Assembly: GCA_020248265.1 (NCBI GenBank)
Contig: JADCHX010000011.1
Location: 124,001 to 188,000, forward strand
Source: Rhodocyclaceae bacterium
GTDB taxonomy: Bacteria; Pseudomonadota; Gammaproteobacteria; Burkholderiales; CAIKXV01
DNA: 64,000 nt
Direction of reading: 5' to 3'
Below, one piece after another: positions 28,322-36,814 of the stretch. Numbering within the stretch: the stretch's first letter is position 1; every line of letters starts with the position of its first letter. Below the pieces are notes generated by a model. The model was not told the origin of the DNA. It saw nothing but the letters and a program-made list of their open reading frames with translations, and ran no database searches. Position numbers and translations under genes: made by a program.

Positions 28322-28459
28322 AGCGTCCCCGGACAGACAGGACCCGCGGCACGCTTCGCGGTAAGCTCTTCCACCGACCACGGTGTGCGAACGGGCGCTG
28401 ACCTGCGGTTCCGCACGCCGGGTCACCGGCCATCGTGCCGGTCAATCCCAGGAGGCGTT

Positions 28460-29470
28460 GTGATCCGATCCATTCCGTCGTCCGTGGCGCGACCGCGCGC
28501 GGCTTTGTTTCCTGTCGTTGTCGCCATGCTCGCCGCGACCGGCGCCGTCGCGCCTTCGGTGTTTGCCCAGCCAGTCGCCGGCGGCAAGACGATCCGTATC
28601 GTCGTGCCGTTCCCGCCCGGTGGCAGCGTCGACGTGATCGCGCGCCTGCTCGCCGCGCGCATGACCGAACTGGCTGGCCAGAACTTCCTGGTCGAGAACC
28701 GCTCCGGGGCGACCGGCGTGATCGGTACAGAGTATGTCGCGCGCGCGGCAGCCGACGGGACGACGCTGCTGCTCAACACACTGCCGTTCGTGGTCAACGT
28801 GCCGCTGATGGGTAAGGTCCCCTACGACCCGATCCGCGACTTCGCGCCGGTGTCGCTGGTGGCGACCTCCCCCGCGATGCTGGTGGTCCACCCGTCGGTG
28901 CCGGCACGCAACCTGAAGGAACTGATCGCGCTCGCGAAGGCGAAGCCCGGCCGGATGACATTCTCGTCATCGGGCAGTGGATCCAACCCGCACATTCCCG
29001 CCGAGTTCATGAAGCAGCTGACGAAGGCGGACATCGTGCACGTACCCTACAAGGGCGGCGGTCCGGCCCTGACCGCGGTGCTCGGTGGCGAGGTCGACAT
29101 GAGCTTCATCAGCCTGGTGGCGGTGTTGCCGCACGTCGAATCGAAGCGCCTGCGTTCGATCGCGGTGACCAGCATCAAGCGCGTGCCGCTGGCGCCAGAG
29201 GTGCCCACGATGGCCGAGTCCGGGCTGCCCGGCTTCGAGTTCAGCGGCTGGTTCGTGCTGATGGCACCTGCGAACACGCCGGCGTCGATCGTCAATCCGC
29301 TCAACCAGCTGGCGGTCAAGGCGATGCAGTCCCCGGAAATGCGCGAACGCCTGACCAAGGAGGGCGCGGAGGCACTCGGCACTTCACCCGACCAGGTGAC
29401 CGCACTGCTGAAGAGCGAACTCGTACGCTGGACCCGGCTGATCCGCGAGAACAACATCAAGCCCGAGTGA
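28460..29470 (+). CDS. Bug/TctC family periplasmic solute-binding protein
   Basis: The protein has 336 aa, with a signal peptide ending near PSVFAQPV and then IRIVVPFPPGGSVDVIAR, VENRSGATGVIGTEYVARA, ADGTTLLLNT, YKGGGPALTAVLGGEVDMSF and LRSIAVTS. The start is GTG 28460 with a strong AGGAGG ribosome site 5 bases upstream (28450-28455). It follows the GntR gene on the same strand after about 140 bases, so it is a likely further target of that regulator. Confidence 0.93.
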   Translation: MIRSIPSSVARPRAALFPVVVAMLAATGAVAPSVFAQPVAGGKTIRIVVPFPPGGSVDVIARLLAARMTELAGQNFLVENRSGATGVIGTEYVARAAADGTTLLLNTLPFVVNVPLMGKVPYDPIRDFAPVSLVATSPAMLVVHPSVPARNLKELIALAKAKPGRMTFSSSGSGSNPHIPAEFMKQLTKADIVHVPYKGGGPALTAVLGGEVDMSFISLVAVLPHVESKRLRSIAVTSIKRVPLAPEVPTMAESGLPGFEFSGWFVLMAPANTPASIVNPLNQLAVKAMQSPEMRERLTKEGAEALGTSPDQVTALLKSELVRWTRLIRENNIKPE

Positions 29471-29525: not shown

Positions 29526-30602
29526 TCACTTGCCGGTATAGTTCGCCGCCTTCGATCGACGCTCCTTCACCGCGGCGGCCAGCGCATCGAGCACCGGCAC
29601 GCTGTCTTCCCAGGCGATGCAGGCATCGGTGATCGACTGGCCGTAGGTCAGCGGCTTGCCGGGCACCAGGTCCTGGCGGCCGGCAACCAGGTGGCTTTCG
29701 ATCATCACGCCGATGATGCGATCGCTGCCGCCGGCAATCTGCCCTGCGATGTCCTGCGCGACCAGGATCTGGTTCTCGTGCTTCTTCGAGCTGTTGCTGT
29801 GGCTCGTATCGATCATCAGGCGCTGTGCCAGCCCGGACTTCGCGAGCTCGACGCACGCGGCATCGACGCTCGCAGCGTCGTAGTTCGGTGCCTTGCCGCC
29901 GCGCAGGATGATGTGGCAGTCCTCGTTTCCGGTGGTGGACACGATCGCCGAATGCCCGGCCTTGGTCACCGAAAGGAAATGGTGCGGGCGCTCGGCGGCC
30001 TTGATCGCATCGACCGCGATCTTCACCGTGCCGTCGGTGCCGTTCTTGAAGCCCACCGGGCAGGACAGGCCGGAGGCCAGCTCACGGTGCGACTGGCTCT
30101 CCGTGGTGCGCGCGCCGATCGCGCCCCAGCTCACCGTGTCCGCGATGTACTGCGGCGTGATCATGTCGAGGAACTCGCAGCCGGCGGGCACGCCGCGCCG
30201 GTTGATCTCGAGCAGCATCTCGCGCGCGATGCGCAGCCCCTGGTTGATCTGGAAGCTGCCATCGAGCTGCGGATCGTTGATCAGTCCCTTCCAGCCGACG
30301 GTCGTGCGCGGCTTCTCGAAATAGACGCGCATCACGATCTCGAGTTCGCCGGCGAGCCGCTTGCGCTCCGGGGCGAGCCGCTCGACGTATTCCAGCGCCG
30401 CGCGCGGGTCGTGGATCGAGCACGGGCCGATGATCACCACCAGCCGGTCGTCCATGCCGTGCACGATCCGGTGGATCTTCGCGCGCGTGTCGTACACCAG
30501 GTCGGACACCTTTTCGTCGATCGGAAACTCGCGCACCACGTGCGACGGCGGCGCGAGTTCCTTTAGCTCCTTGATGCGGACGTCATCGGTCTTGTGCGGC
30601 AT
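29526..30602 (-). CDS. aroG: class I 3-deoxy-7-phosphoheptulonate (DAHP) synthase
   Basis: The protein has 358 aa and belongs to the AroF/G/H type. It condenses phosphoenolpyruvate and erythrose 4-phosphate, the first step of aromatic amino acid synthesis. The metal ligands are recognisable as Cys in IGPCSIHDP, His in DTSHSNSSKKH, Glu in MIESHLVAG and Asp in TDACIAWED. The PEP-binding stretch VGFKNGTDGT is intact. I chose the ATG at 30602 with GGAGAAG upstream. A Phe-rich leader peptide with an attenuator precedes it, pointing to control by charged tRNA-Phe. Which aromatic amino acid inhibits the enzyme allosterically cannot be told here. Confidence 0.95.
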   Translation of the reverse strand: MPHKTDDVRIKELKELAPPSHVVREFPIDEKVSDLVYDTRAKIHRIVHGMDDRLVVIIGPCSIHDPRAALEYVERLAPERKRLAGELEIVMRVYFEKPRTTVGWKGLINDPQLDGSFQINQGLRIAREMLLEINRRGVPAGCEFLDMITPQYIADTVSWGAIGARTTESQSHRELASGLSCPVGFKNGTDGTVKIAVDAIKAAERPHHFLSVTKAGHSAIVSTTGNEDCHIILRGGKAPNYDAASVDAACVELAKSGLAQRLMIDTSHSNSSKKHENQILVAQDIAGQIAGGSDRIIGVMIESHLVAGRQDLVPGKPLTYGQSITDACIAWEDSVPVLDALAAAVKERRSKAANYTGK

Positions 30603-30648: not shown

Positions 30649-30678
30649 AAAAAAAACCGCCAGGTTTTGGCCTGGCGG
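30649..30678 (-). terminator. attenuator terminator upstream of the DAHP synthase gene
   Basis: On the minus strand CCGCCAGG (30678-30671) and CCTGGCGG (30664-30657) form a perfect 8-bp stem with a 6-base loop, followed directly by T8 (30656-30649). It lies 47 bases before the ATG of the gene it precedes, so it would stop transcription before the gene unless relieved. Confidence 0.85.
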
Positions 30679-30731
30679 TCGGTATCGGGTTCGGTATGTT
30701 TCAGCAGCGCCGATCGATTCCTTCCGCCAGG
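30671..30731 (-). promoter_or_regulatory. antiterminator pairing of the Phe attenuator
   Basis: The sequence CCTGGCGG of the terminator's 3' arm occurs a second time inside the leader peptide (30731-30724). That copy can pair with the terminator's 5' arm CCGCCAGG (30678-30671) over 8 bp and so prevent the terminator stem. This is the 2:3 versus 3:4 choice of a classical amino-acid attenuator. A ribosome waiting at the Phe codons just upstream would favour the antiterminator. Confidence 0.7.
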
Positions 30732-30778
30732 GGCAGAAAGAAGCCGAAAAAGAACCAGTGGGCAGCGCGCGTGTACAT
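30701..30778 (-). CDS. Phe-rich leader peptide of the DAHP synthase gene
   Basis: A 25-residue open frame reading MYTRAAHWFFFGFFLPLAEG and five more residues, ending in TGA 23 bases before the terminator stem. Five of six consecutive codons (TTC TTT TTC GGC TTC TTT) are Phe, after one Trp. This matches the design of E. coli PheL (IPFFFAFFFTFP) but stands before a DAHP synthase gene rather than pheA. The ribosome site (CCGGGT) is weak. No convincing promoter is visible between it and the end of the upstream cupin gene at 30840, so transcription may start inside that gene. Confidence 0.75.
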   Translation of the reverse strand: MYTRAAHWFFFGFFLPLAEGIDRRC

Positions 30779-30839
30779 ACCCGGACTGTATTCGATCCCG
30801 GGGGTGTGGCGCAATAGGGATGGCAACCTGCCGCCTGCG

Positions 30840-31397
30840 TCAGATCGGCTTGTCGACCGCAGAGGTGGGTGCGGCCTTCAGGTGCTCGTCGCGCCTGTCG
30901 TACAGCGAGGCATCGGCGTAGCCCATGGTCTCGGGCTTCGCCCGGCCATGCATCACCTGGAAATACACCGGCTCCAGGCTGCGGTTCTCGTAGCCGTGGA
31001 TCACGCCGGGCGGGCAGGACACGCAATCCCAGGGGCCGAGGCGCTTCCACACCTGGCGCCCGGTCTCGTCTTCGAGGAACACGTCGAGGAAGCCCTTCAG
31101 GACGAAGAAGCACTCCTCCGACTCATGGGTATGGGCGGCGTTGCCCTGGCCGGGGTTCACGAACATTATGGTGAGCGTGAAGCCGCGCGCCGGGATCACG
31201 TCCGGATCGCCATGCTTGCCGGAGGCGCCGGCGCCGATGAAGCGGTGCTGTGCCCGCTTCCATCCCTCGATCTTCGCGTCCTCGAACGCATACCAGTCGG
31301 GGACACGCTCCGAGTAGAGCGCGACGTACTGGTCCATGATCTGCTCGAGCGAGAGATCCTTCACTTCGGGTGGCATCGGGTGGCGGGCGGCTCCCAT
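30840..31397 (-). CDS. cupin-domain protein
   Basis: The protein has 185 aa with a single C-terminal cupin barrel (about residues 70-165). Metal-binding motifs are HTHESEECFFVLKGFLDVF and the second-motif His in PPGVIHGYEN. The N-terminal 60 residues are helical and contain VPDWYAFEDAKI. The start ATG 31397 has CAGGAGATC upstream. Function is unknown; dioxygenase-like or ligand-binding roles are possible. It is on the same strand as the downstream DAHP synthase leader, 61 bases away. Confidence 0.82.
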   Translation of the reverse strand: MGAARHPMPPEVKDLSLEQIMDQYVALYSERVPDWYAFEDAKIEGWKRAQHRFIGAGASGKHGDPDVIPARGFTLTIMFVNPGQGNAAHTHESEECFFVLKGFLDVFLEDETGRQVWKRLGPWDCVSCPPGVIHGYENRSLEPVYFQVMHGRAKPETMGYADASLYDRRDEHLKAAPTSAVDKPI

Positions 31398-31480
31398 GGG
31401 GGATCTCCTGTGCAGGGTTGGGGTTGACAAGTGGGCGAAGGTGGTACGCGCCTCGGGTACGACCGTGAATCGACGGCGGC

Positions 31481-32329
31481 TCAGACGCCGCGCAGGACGA
31501 AGTCGCGCACCGATTCGAACAGTAAGTTGCCCGGCTCCGCGAGCGCTTCGGCCACCGACAGGTGGTGGCAGCCAGGCACGTCGATGTGCCCCTTCACCGA
31601 TGCCGGCCAGTGCTCGGCGAGCGTGCGGCACTGCCGCCTGAACTCGTCGCTCTCGAGCGCGCCCGCCGCAGTGCGTACCGGCACCGGCCACGGCGGCAGG
31701 TGCTCGATCGGGCTCAGTGCCTTCGCGCTCGCGGCATCGAGCCGGATGTCGGCATTGAACGAGAAATGCAGCATCGGCATGAGGTCGAACAGGCCGCTGA
31801 CCGCATAGGCACCCTTTACCAGGTCGGCCGGCAGTGCTGCATCCACTTCCGTCCAGCGCGTGGCCGCCATCATGGCCGCCAGGTGCCCACCCGCGGAGTG
31901 GCCGGCGATGAACAGCCTCGATGCATCGGCGCCGTGTTCGCCCGCATGCCGGTACAGCCAGGCATGGGCGGCCACCATCTGCTCGACGATGTTGCCGACC
32001 GTCACGGCCGGGGTGAGGTCGTACTCCGGCATCGCGACCGTGATGCCGGCGGCGACGAAGGGCTCGGCAACGAAAGCGAACTCGGACTTGTCGCGCGAAC
32101 GCCAGTAGCCGCCATGGATGAAGGACAGGATCGGCGCGCCCGGGGTTGCTGCGGGATAAAGGTCGATGCGCTGGCGCGCCGACGGACCATAGGCGAGGTC
32201 GAGCTTCGACGCCAGGCGCGCGCGCGCCGCGGTCGAGCGCGCGACGCCGCGCGCGTTGTAGTCGGCCGCATCCGGTATGGACAGGCGGTTGTTGTACTGG
32301 CCTTCGTAGTAGGCGTCGGCATCGTCCAT
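31481..32329 (-). CDS. alpha/beta hydrolase (arylformamidase/esterase-like)
   Basis: The protein has 282 aa. The oxyanion-hole motif HGGYWRSRDKSEF is the one typical of kynurenine formamidase of the BNA7/AFMID type and HSL-like esterases. The nucleophile elbow is IAGHSAGGHLAAMM, and the catalytic His is probably in DVPGCHHLSVAEAL. It may cleave N-formylkynurenine or another small ester or amide; no other kynurenine gene is adjacent, so this remains open. Confidence 0.85.
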   Translation of the reverse strand: MDDADAYYEGQYNNRLSIPDAADYNARGVARSTAARARLASKLDLAYGPSARQRIDLYPAATPGAPILSFIHGGYWRSRDKSEFAFVAEPFVAAGITVAMPEYDLTPAVTVGNIVEQMVAAHAWLYRHAGEHGADASRLFIAGHSAGGHLAAMMAATRWTEVDAALPADLVKGAYAVSGLFDLMPMLHFSFNADIRLDAASAKALSPIEHLPPWPVPVRTAAGALESDEFRRQCRTLAEHWPASVKGHIDVPGCHHLSVAEALAEPGNLLFESVRDFVLRGV

Positions 32330-36740: not shown

Positions 36741-36814
36741 GCGGGTGTAGTTCAATGGTAGAACGAAAGCTTCCCAAGCTCTAGACGTGGGTTCGATTCC
36801 CATCACCCGCTCCA
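36741..36814 (+). tRNA. tRNA-Gly (anticodon CCC)
   Basis: Seventy-four bases including an encoded CCA. The acceptor stem GCGGGTG pairs with CACCCGC, the D-arm is GTTC/GAAC, the anticodon loop is TTCCCAA and the T-arm is GTGGG-TTCGATT-CCCAT. It closely resembles E. coli glyU. In the anticodon stem (AAAGC / GCTCT) positions 28 and 42 form an A-C mismatch where E. coli has G-C. Confidence 0.95.

Follow-up and report, generated by a model that had tools for sequence, protein, structure and literature searches.

The aroG locus and its leader

The window, which is the whole 64-kb stretch of DNA analysed here, carries on its minus strand a DAHP synthase gene, aroG, with its ATG start at 30602. A short leader ORF precedes the gene, and an intrinsic terminator spans 30678-30649 on the minus strand between the two. 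The features of the locus are as follows.

30785..30814, minus strand: candidate promoter, TTGCGC / 18-nt spacer / TACAGT; from the sequence, a weak match to the consensus, with the RNA start predicted at or beside the leader ATG
30701..30778, minus strand: leader ORF of 25 codons, MYTRAAHWFFFGFFLPLAEGIDRRC; read directly, with homologous leaders aligned
30737..30757, minus strand: putative control codons TGG TTC TTT TTC GGC TTC TTT (W8, F9-F11, G12, F13-F14); from the sequence and the stalling model
30724..30731, minus strand: region 2, CCTGGCGG; putative antiterminator partner of region 3, from covariation and swap tests
30681..30723, minus strand: predicted inner antiterminator extension, 2b AAGGAATCGATCGG (30723-30710) and 3b CCGAACCCGATACC (30694-30681); from the MFE fold before region 4
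30671..30678, minus strand: region 3, CCGCCAGG; 5' arm of the terminator
30649..30664, minus strand: region 4, CCTGGCGG (30664-30657), and T8 (30656-30649); 3' arm and tail of the terminator
29526..30602, minus strand: aroG, type I DAHP synthase; from Pfam and NCBIfam

Direct reading placed the leader ATG at 30778-30776 and the stop codon TGA at 30703-30701. The Phe run TTC TTT TTC GGC TTC TTT occupies 30754-30737, and the TGG codon at 30757-30755 lies immediately 5' of it. The sequence CCTGGCGG is present twice, once inside the leader ORF (30731-30724) and once as the 3' arm of the terminator (30664-30657). An earlier note on this DNA had described the 25-codon leader with its Phe run, and the two copies of CCTGGCGG, the second of them in a T8 terminator with CCGCCAGG; both were found where it had put them. 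Its assignment of the gene behind the leader also proved right, as the protein matched Pfam DAHP_synth_1 (E 2.7e-96) and NCBIfam AroG (586.1 bits, cut-off 568). Neither a second type I nor a type II DAHP synthase was found in the 4.55-Mb, 98%-complete genome. AroG is thus the only DAHP synthase found there and appears to supply the Phe, Tyr and Trp branches by itself.

A search of both strands of the window for ATG ORFs of 10-40 aa in which 10 residues include at least 5 aromatic ones returned the leader alone. At the gathering score, no Rfam cis-regulatory family was found in the window, and the sole Rfam match was a tRNA gene (36741-36811, plus strand). The peptides of six leaders, searched against Pfam and NCBIfam, gave no family match at E <= 1, except for one of the window leader to cytochrome b561 (E 0.18), which we dismissed as meaningless. 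Two neighbouring ORFs were identified by eye from their translations: a cupin-like ORF upstream of the leader (30840-31691, minus strand), and a TctC/Bug-type binding-protein-like ORF (28385-29470, plus strand) that lies tail to tail with aroG. A promoter-like sequence that would belong to aroG itself lies 3' of the cupin-like ORF.

Conservation and pairing of the leader RNA

Ten genomes were sampled within the genus, and eight of them gave the locus; left out were G006, which had no AroG match, the AroG of G002, which was split over two contigs, and a second AroG of G007 (contig C119). The leader, region 2 and the terminator stood before AroG in all nine loci read (the window's own and eight others). 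Within the genus, pairwise identity was highest in the terminator (0.94), followed by the segment running from region 2 to the end of the leader (0.90) and that between the stop codon and the terminator (0.83). It was 0.74 in the Phe run, 0.65 after the terminator, 0.61 in the promoter, 0.58 in codons 1-8 and 0.41 in the stretch 90-40 nt before the ATG.

Among 110 AroG loci, 65 passed a filter for an aromatic ORF followed by a terminator. The other 45 lacked the element or failed the filter, some of them for lack of upstream sequence, and the filter has false negatives such as L015, in which an aromatic leader is visible. When the 110 upstream regions were searched for ATG ORFs of high aromatic density (5 or more aromatics in 10 residues), 66 contained one; 20 dinucleotide-shuffled versions of the set gave 1.4 on average. 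For further comparison we gathered 124 loci with an aromatic ORF; 8 had no terminator pattern, and the remaining 116 gave 101 distinct leaders once identical ones were merged. These 101 were partly found by a covariance model and are not a frequency estimate. One leader (L032) was dropped from the composition, promoter, Shine-Dalgarno (SD), codon and frame counts because the detector had chosen a wrong start, and another (L064) from the promoter and SD counts because of its short upstream sequence, so that 100 of the 101 leaders were used for composition, codons and frames, and 99 for promoter and SD. L031 and L008, equal in length and leader, come from the same contig.

The two alternative helices were examined in 40 aligned leaders. 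In the terminator helix, 94.4% of the cells were paired, with 20 double-change cells against 5.5 in shuffles; in the antiterminator helix, 83.4% were paired, with 24 such cells against 10.0. None of 500 shuffles reached either count. The number of pairs changed on both sides was not clear of chance, being 4 against 3.1 for the antiterminator (124 of 500 shuffles reached it) and 3 against 2.7 for the terminator (375 of 500). Further pair types numbered 12 against 9.4 in the antiterminator (reached by 13 of 500 shuffles) and 7 against 7.2 in the terminator (392 of 500). The inner pairs of the helices hardly varied, so the covariation evidence came from the outer pairs.

Swap tests pointed the same way. 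Across 59 leaders, region 2 and the region 3 of the same leader formed a duplex of -16.25 kcal/mol, against -14.63 when partners were swapped, and none of 20000 permutations was as good. Kinship of the sequences inflates such permutation and shuffle tests; in the fairer test, with one leader from each of 19 clades set by hand, the values were -15.71 and -14.55 kcal/mol, and 0.56% of swaps were as good on average. The inner extension 2b:3b likewise favoured its own partner (-9.29 against -8.16 in 58 leaders, with none of 20000 permutations as good; -9.50 against -7.95 with one leader per clade). These results support the earlier proposal that the first copy of CCTGGCGG would pair with the 5' arm of the terminator as an antiterminator. 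The comparison with relatives that the earlier note had set as a check also came out in favour, since the leader, the second GGCGG copy and the terminator recurred and the alternative pairing covaried.

The GGCGG/GGCAG core was read in three frames, by 73, 12 and 10 of 100 leaders (none was present in 5), which indicates that it was kept as RNA and not as peptide. Two Massilia leaders (L048:2821-2955 and L049:2809-2955) illustrate this, for they share the GGCGG segment in different frames (SPWRWN and SPLAVE), with the RNA kept and the peptide not. A CCGAAATTCCCGA-like stretch recurred between the leader stop and the terminator in L042, L043 and other leaders. It can be explained as the 3' side of the predicted inner antiterminator extension. 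In the alignment from the leader ATG on, no other conserved block was seen by eye outside regions 2-4.

The RNA of 30790-30600 was more stable than all 200 shuffled sequences (z -3.13). We then ran an occlusion model on six leaders, in which the ribosome was assumed to cover from P-site -15 to A-site +12. With the ribosome stalled on F9-F11 of the window leader, all 8 antiterminator pairs were predicted to form (8.0); the number fell to 5.9 for a stall on F13, to 2.9 on F14 and to 0 on codons 15-24. In all six leaders, pairing of regions 2 and 3 was complete while the ribosome occupied the first aromatic codons, and was slight or absent after the ribosome had advanced well onto region 2. Some pairs persisted longer in L008 (1.5-1.9) and L073 (1-4), which kept them to codon 19-20 and reached zero only at codon 20-21 in the model.

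With the ribosome absent, the antiterminator of the window leader still formed in the occlusion model before region 4 exists (7.6 pairs), and in the fold model it was favoured at that stage by -33.8 against -29.5 kcal/mol. A ribosome at the stop codon was predicted to free region 2 again (7.8 pairs). Once complete, the RNA favoured the terminator state (-45.6 against -39.4 kcal/mol in the fold model). In the full-length fold, the Phe codons formed a hairpin with region 2, yet the pairing of regions 2 and 3 prevailed before region 4 even on ribosome-free RNA. The trp attenuator has a 1:2 protecting hairpin and is superattenuated in the absence of translation. Because the modelled antiterminator formed both with no ribosome and with one at the stop codon, the present element does not look superattenuated in this way. 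By the same pairing, termination would need a well-timed ribosome on region 2, or region 4 displacing region 2; it seems to rest on timing or on such displacement.

Leader starts, amino acids read and distribution

The window leader is preceded by a -35-like TTGCGC (30814-30809, 3 of 6 positions matching the consensus) and, 18 nt on, by a -10-like TACAGT (30790-30785, 4 of 6). TACAGT ends 6 nt 5' of the leader ATG, and there is no SD. The earlier note had seen no clear promoter. By the consensus, and by a promoter scan, which reported none, this holds; in relatives, however, the place of the TACAGT-like box is conserved. A TANNNT motif began 12 nt before the ATG in seven of the nine same-genus loci (L001-L007, absent from L008 and L009), and 28 of 99 leaders had it at -14 to -12, against a mean of 3.3 per other three-position bin. 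Inspection by eye showed that the Rhizobiales-like leaders have GTGACAA and CTATATG, or comparable motifs, with much the same spacing from the ATG; the TANNNT count mostly missed these. In the Burkholderia and Oxalobacteraceae leaders a TATA-like box lay about 25-30 nt farther upstream, again with no SD, and these groups probably have a short untranslated region before the leader. L009 starts with GTG and seems not to be leaderless.

Of 99 leader starts, 2 had an SD-like tetramer before them; such a tetramer preceded 72 of 99 aroG starts, whose positions were extrapolated from tblastn, and was present at 8.8% of sites chosen at random upstream. A -10 box some 6-8 nt 5' of the start codon, together with the lack of an SD, was found in the window leader and partly in its relatives. 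The window leader may therefore be leaderless, with its RNA beginning at or beside the AUG. The earlier note had taken the lack of a strong ribosome site as a weak point. The lack itself is borne out, but it is hardly a weakness when 97 of 99 leaders share it; it looks like a trait of the family, and is better read as the sign of a leaderless or SD-less leader.

Because the leaders had been picked for their aromatic residues, the aromatic share is uninformative; the mix of Phe, Tyr and Trp was unselected. In the best 14-residue stretch of 100 distinct leaders, all three occurred in 56, Phe with Tyr in 36, Phe with Trp in 3 and Phe alone in 5; 92 of the 100 thus mixed Phe and Tyr. Examples are MITVATSYFWYFSYDSSLAAGGSRSI from Bradyrhizobium forestalis (L073), MNAAPTSFYWYYFPKPLAEEGLRSP from a Stenotrophomonas MAG (L098) and MSAKFYFYFFWHLRPLADREGESYTG from Caballeronia fortuita (L035). 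The run of the window leader, HWFFFGFF, has five Phe codons and one Trp codon, with a Tyr codon at position 2 of the leader. By this comparison, the window leader is one of the few Phe-weighted ones, and its genus is Phe-heavy.

Codon use in the leaders differed from that in the aroG genes. TTT made up 66% of leader Phe codons (270 of 411) against 19% in aroG genes (131 of 690), and TAT made up 51% of Tyr codons against 27%. Within the genus, TTT accounted for 20 of 46 Phe codons in leaders and 1 of 57 in aroG. The ribosome may stall more sharply at rare codons, or the high U content may be of use to the RNA itself.

The covariance model found one full-length site in the window's own genome (92.1 bits); the sole other match there (15.4 bits) was the same terminator on the opposite strand. 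Of 200 genomes of the order, 45 from 14 families each had a single full-length match at E < 1e-8, in every case at AroG; 8 of these matches were training rows of the model, and some others may be of the same species as named training rows. The other 155 genomes had no match at this threshold, and some of them may lack this AroG; among 60 relatives, 17 gave no AroG match. Outside the order, 274 genomes of the class gave 2 strong matches, both in family f63 and both at AroG. We take this family to be Xanthomonadales-like from the resemblance of its leaders to Dyella and Stenotrophomonas records. Across 349 genomes of the phylum, 40 had a match at E <= 1e-7: 18 of the order, 5 of f63 and 17 from outside the class. 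Fifteen of the last belong to two families, which appear Rhizobiales-like in that their leaders resemble Bradyrhizobium and Mesorhizobium records. All 34 of the 40 phylum matches that were checked lay at AroG.

In the family of G774, whose leaders resemble those of Burkholderia and Cupriavidus, a match at E 1e-6 was present in 91 of 120 genomes, a minority of which were checked for adjacency to AroG; the 20 genomes listed as lacking one were of 0.2-2.8 Mb, and 9 more had none. Below a strength of about E 1e-6, a match frequently covered nothing but the terminator (around positions 100-139 of the model). None of five weak matches in the order (G197, G124, G082, G118 and G148:C4) had AroG within the stretch taken, and the same was true of 15 weaker loci in the class search (L165-L179). 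On plasmid p352-1 of Cupriavidus sp. EM10, an AroG copy 64% identical to the window protein (L220) had no aromatic leader in the 800 bases upstream, and control may differ between copies within one genus. Overall, the comparison indicates that the attenuator is wide but not universal in Burkholderiales, and that it extends beyond that order.

Mechanism of control and relation to known systems

We consider it very probable that a ribosome-mediated transcription attenuator controls aroG, the sole DAHP synthase gene found in the genome. The locus has the general anatomy of such a device, judged by sequence, covariation and folding: a leader ORF with aromatic codons, a terminator before the gene, and an exclusive antiterminator 3' of the control codons. 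These parts were conserved, both of the exclusive helices covaried, and the element was associated with AroG.

We infer that RNA polymerase starts at or beside the leader AUG. A ribosome would load on the SD-less leader and reach the run of aromatic codons. When charged tRNA-Phe is scarce (in relatives, also tRNA-Tyr or tRNA-Trp), it would stall in the run; region 2, left free, would join region 3 to form the long, interrupted hairpin of the antiterminator, and the polymerase would continue into aroG. With ample charged tRNA, the ribosome would cover region 2, the terminator of regions 3 and 4 would form, and the transcript would end at T8. With the mixed run of Phe, Tyr and often Trp codons seen across the family, a shortage of any amino acid read would open the first step of the pathway. 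We regard it as likely that DAHP synthase synthesis is governed by one widespread attenuator, multivalent and in many cases leaderless, across many Burkholderiales families and in Xanthomonadales-like and Rhizobiales-like families, the attenuator acting as an OR gate for shortage of aromatic aminoacyl-tRNA, with the window genus holding a Phe-weighted form.

A narrower form of the same attenuator, not exclusive of it, would respond in the window genus to charged tRNA-Phe alone, as that of pheA does. We hold this only tentatively, at somewhat less than an even chance. The five Phe codons and one Trp codon of the window run, repeated in L002 and L003, and the runs of L004, L005 and L006, which are Phe only, are consistent with it. 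The other same-genus runs, in contrast, include Trp or Tyr (L007 FFWSFYGFF, L008 FAFFWFFHGF, L009 GFYFAGF), nearly all leaders at large hold both Phe and Tyr, and AroG, as the sole DAHP synthase found, should serve all three end products. The earlier note had called the element a PheL-like Phe attenuator. The attenuator is strongly supported by our comparison and the feature is real, but the Phe-only, PheL-like part is too narrow, given the Tyr and frequent Trp codons of relatives, the Trp codon of the window leader itself and its low score with Phe_leader (below).

The stable leader RNA, and the conservation of RNA segments beyond the codons, would also suit a metabolite riboswitch or a protein-bound attenuator that acts on the same terminator, with the ORF being secondary. 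This is very unlikely, as no known cis-regulatory family was recognised by Rfam in the window at the gathering score, the aromatic runs were kept although TTT/TTC and TAT/TAC varied, and no further conserved block appeared by eye beyond regions 2-4 in the alignment from the ATG. The leader peptide might instead be the working product, a trans-acting small protein for which peTrpL of Sinorhizobium meliloti provides a precedent (passages of PMC7298713). We think this highly improbable, because the peptide sequence varied widely apart from the aromatics and region 2 was read in three frames; the peptide may have an added trans role beside attenuation. A plain terminator of the cupin-like gene, which ends at 30840 on the same strand with the terminator 162 nt beyond, combined with a chance ORF and an aroG promoter after the terminator, is scarcely credible and was rejected, since region 2 covaried with the terminator arm, aromatic ORFs far outnumbered those in shuffled upstream regions, and by eye the leader and terminator persisted in L005, in L009 and outside the genus although the sequence before the leader was different there.

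Published data on Ralstonia solanacearum bear on the attenuator reading. In passages of PMC6379268, an aroG1-lacZ fusion in B medium rose from 47 to 702 Miller units on deletion of aroG2, and an aroG2-lacZ fusion from 49 to 1072 on deletion of aroG1. Added Phe lowered the values of the deletion strains, 702 and 1072, to 316 and 353. In summary, loss of the other synthase raised expression about 10-20 fold, and Phe then lowered it 2-3 fold; in the wild type Phe hardly mattered (47 to 40), and the double deletion gave less than the single deletion (PMC6379268). The main text of that paper makes no mention of attenuation or a leader. An attenuator, if that strain has one, would predict both the rise and the fall with Phe. 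The weak effect of Phe in the wild type and the level in the double deletion would not be explained by the simple mechanism alone. The rise of Ralstonia aroG on synthase loss, for which the passages of PMC6379268 name no element, might be explained by the attenuator, and this explanation can be tested.

The carbon entry into aromatic synthesis is best known in E. coli, with its repressors and allosteric feedback. TyrR and TrpR are named in passages of PMC11878033. A short RNA that reads several end products seems to exert this control in large bacterial groups, which include Burkholderia, Cupriavidus and Bradyrhizobium relatives. Our literature search, which covered titles, abstract openings and passages of papers other than most subscription ones, recognised no published Phe/Tyr/Trp attenuator on aroG in these groups. 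The main text of a genome-wide survey of premature terminators (PMC2965389) is without aroG, aroF, DAHP or phenylalanine. Attenuators as such are known, and the new part would be the family-wide, multivalent and often leaderless attenuator on DAHP synthase, although priority may lie elsewhere, most obviously in the 2004 survey of proteobacterial attenuators by Vitreschak et al. (FEMS Microbiol Lett).

Several proposals come close to it. Before the DAHP synthase gene aroF of Acholeplasma, an attenuator has been proposed, uORFC-13-1, whose uORF contains one or more Phe codons (PMC8632094). As far as the description in that source goes, it is set apart by its 24 sequences from Acholeplasma and environmental DNA, by a possible ribosome site, and by Phe being the only amino acid named. 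Attenuation of E. coli aroF was hypothesised in a 1980 paper, as cited in passages of PMC8632094. Putative attenuators from the Merino database, cited in PMC1173090, precede the operons of Tyr-type DAHP synthase and tyrA in Vibrio; these too were predicted before a DAHP synthase operon, and the passages of PMC1173090 describe no leader codons. The trpL leader RNA of S. meliloti starts with the ATG of the leader ORF (passages of PMC7298713); it is leaderless, as the aroG leader may be, but has only Trp codons and stands before trpE(G). The 97 leaders without an SD among our 99 offer a natural set in which to study how leaderless or SD-less starts are coupled to transcription, and the leader could serve as a compact natural sensor of aromatic aminoacyl-tRNA.

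The enterobacterial pheA leader (PheL, RF01859) consists of a Phe-rich leader ORF, a terminator and an exclusive antiterminator. The aroG element resembles it in this short Phe-rich ORF, in both structures and in the presumed mode of action. It differs in standing before aroG and not pheA, in the Tyr codons of most relatives and the Trp codons of more than half, and in the lack of an SD motif in 97 of 99 leaders. The Rfam Phe_leader model gave 14.4 bits at the window leader, against a gathering score of 55, and no match at E <= 0.001 across the window's genome. In relatives it gave 30.0 and 28.3 bits in 2 of 17 loci, with no Phe_leader match among those listed at E <= 1 for the others, and 23.3 bits in L073. 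Membership in this family was rejected, all scores being under the gathering score. Multivalent attenuators are found in ilvGMEDA and ilvB, which respond to Leu, Val and Ile, and in thrA, which responds to Thr and Ile. In these systems, as the aroG leaders appear to do, one leader reads several amino acids of a shared pathway, but the amino acids there are not aromatic.
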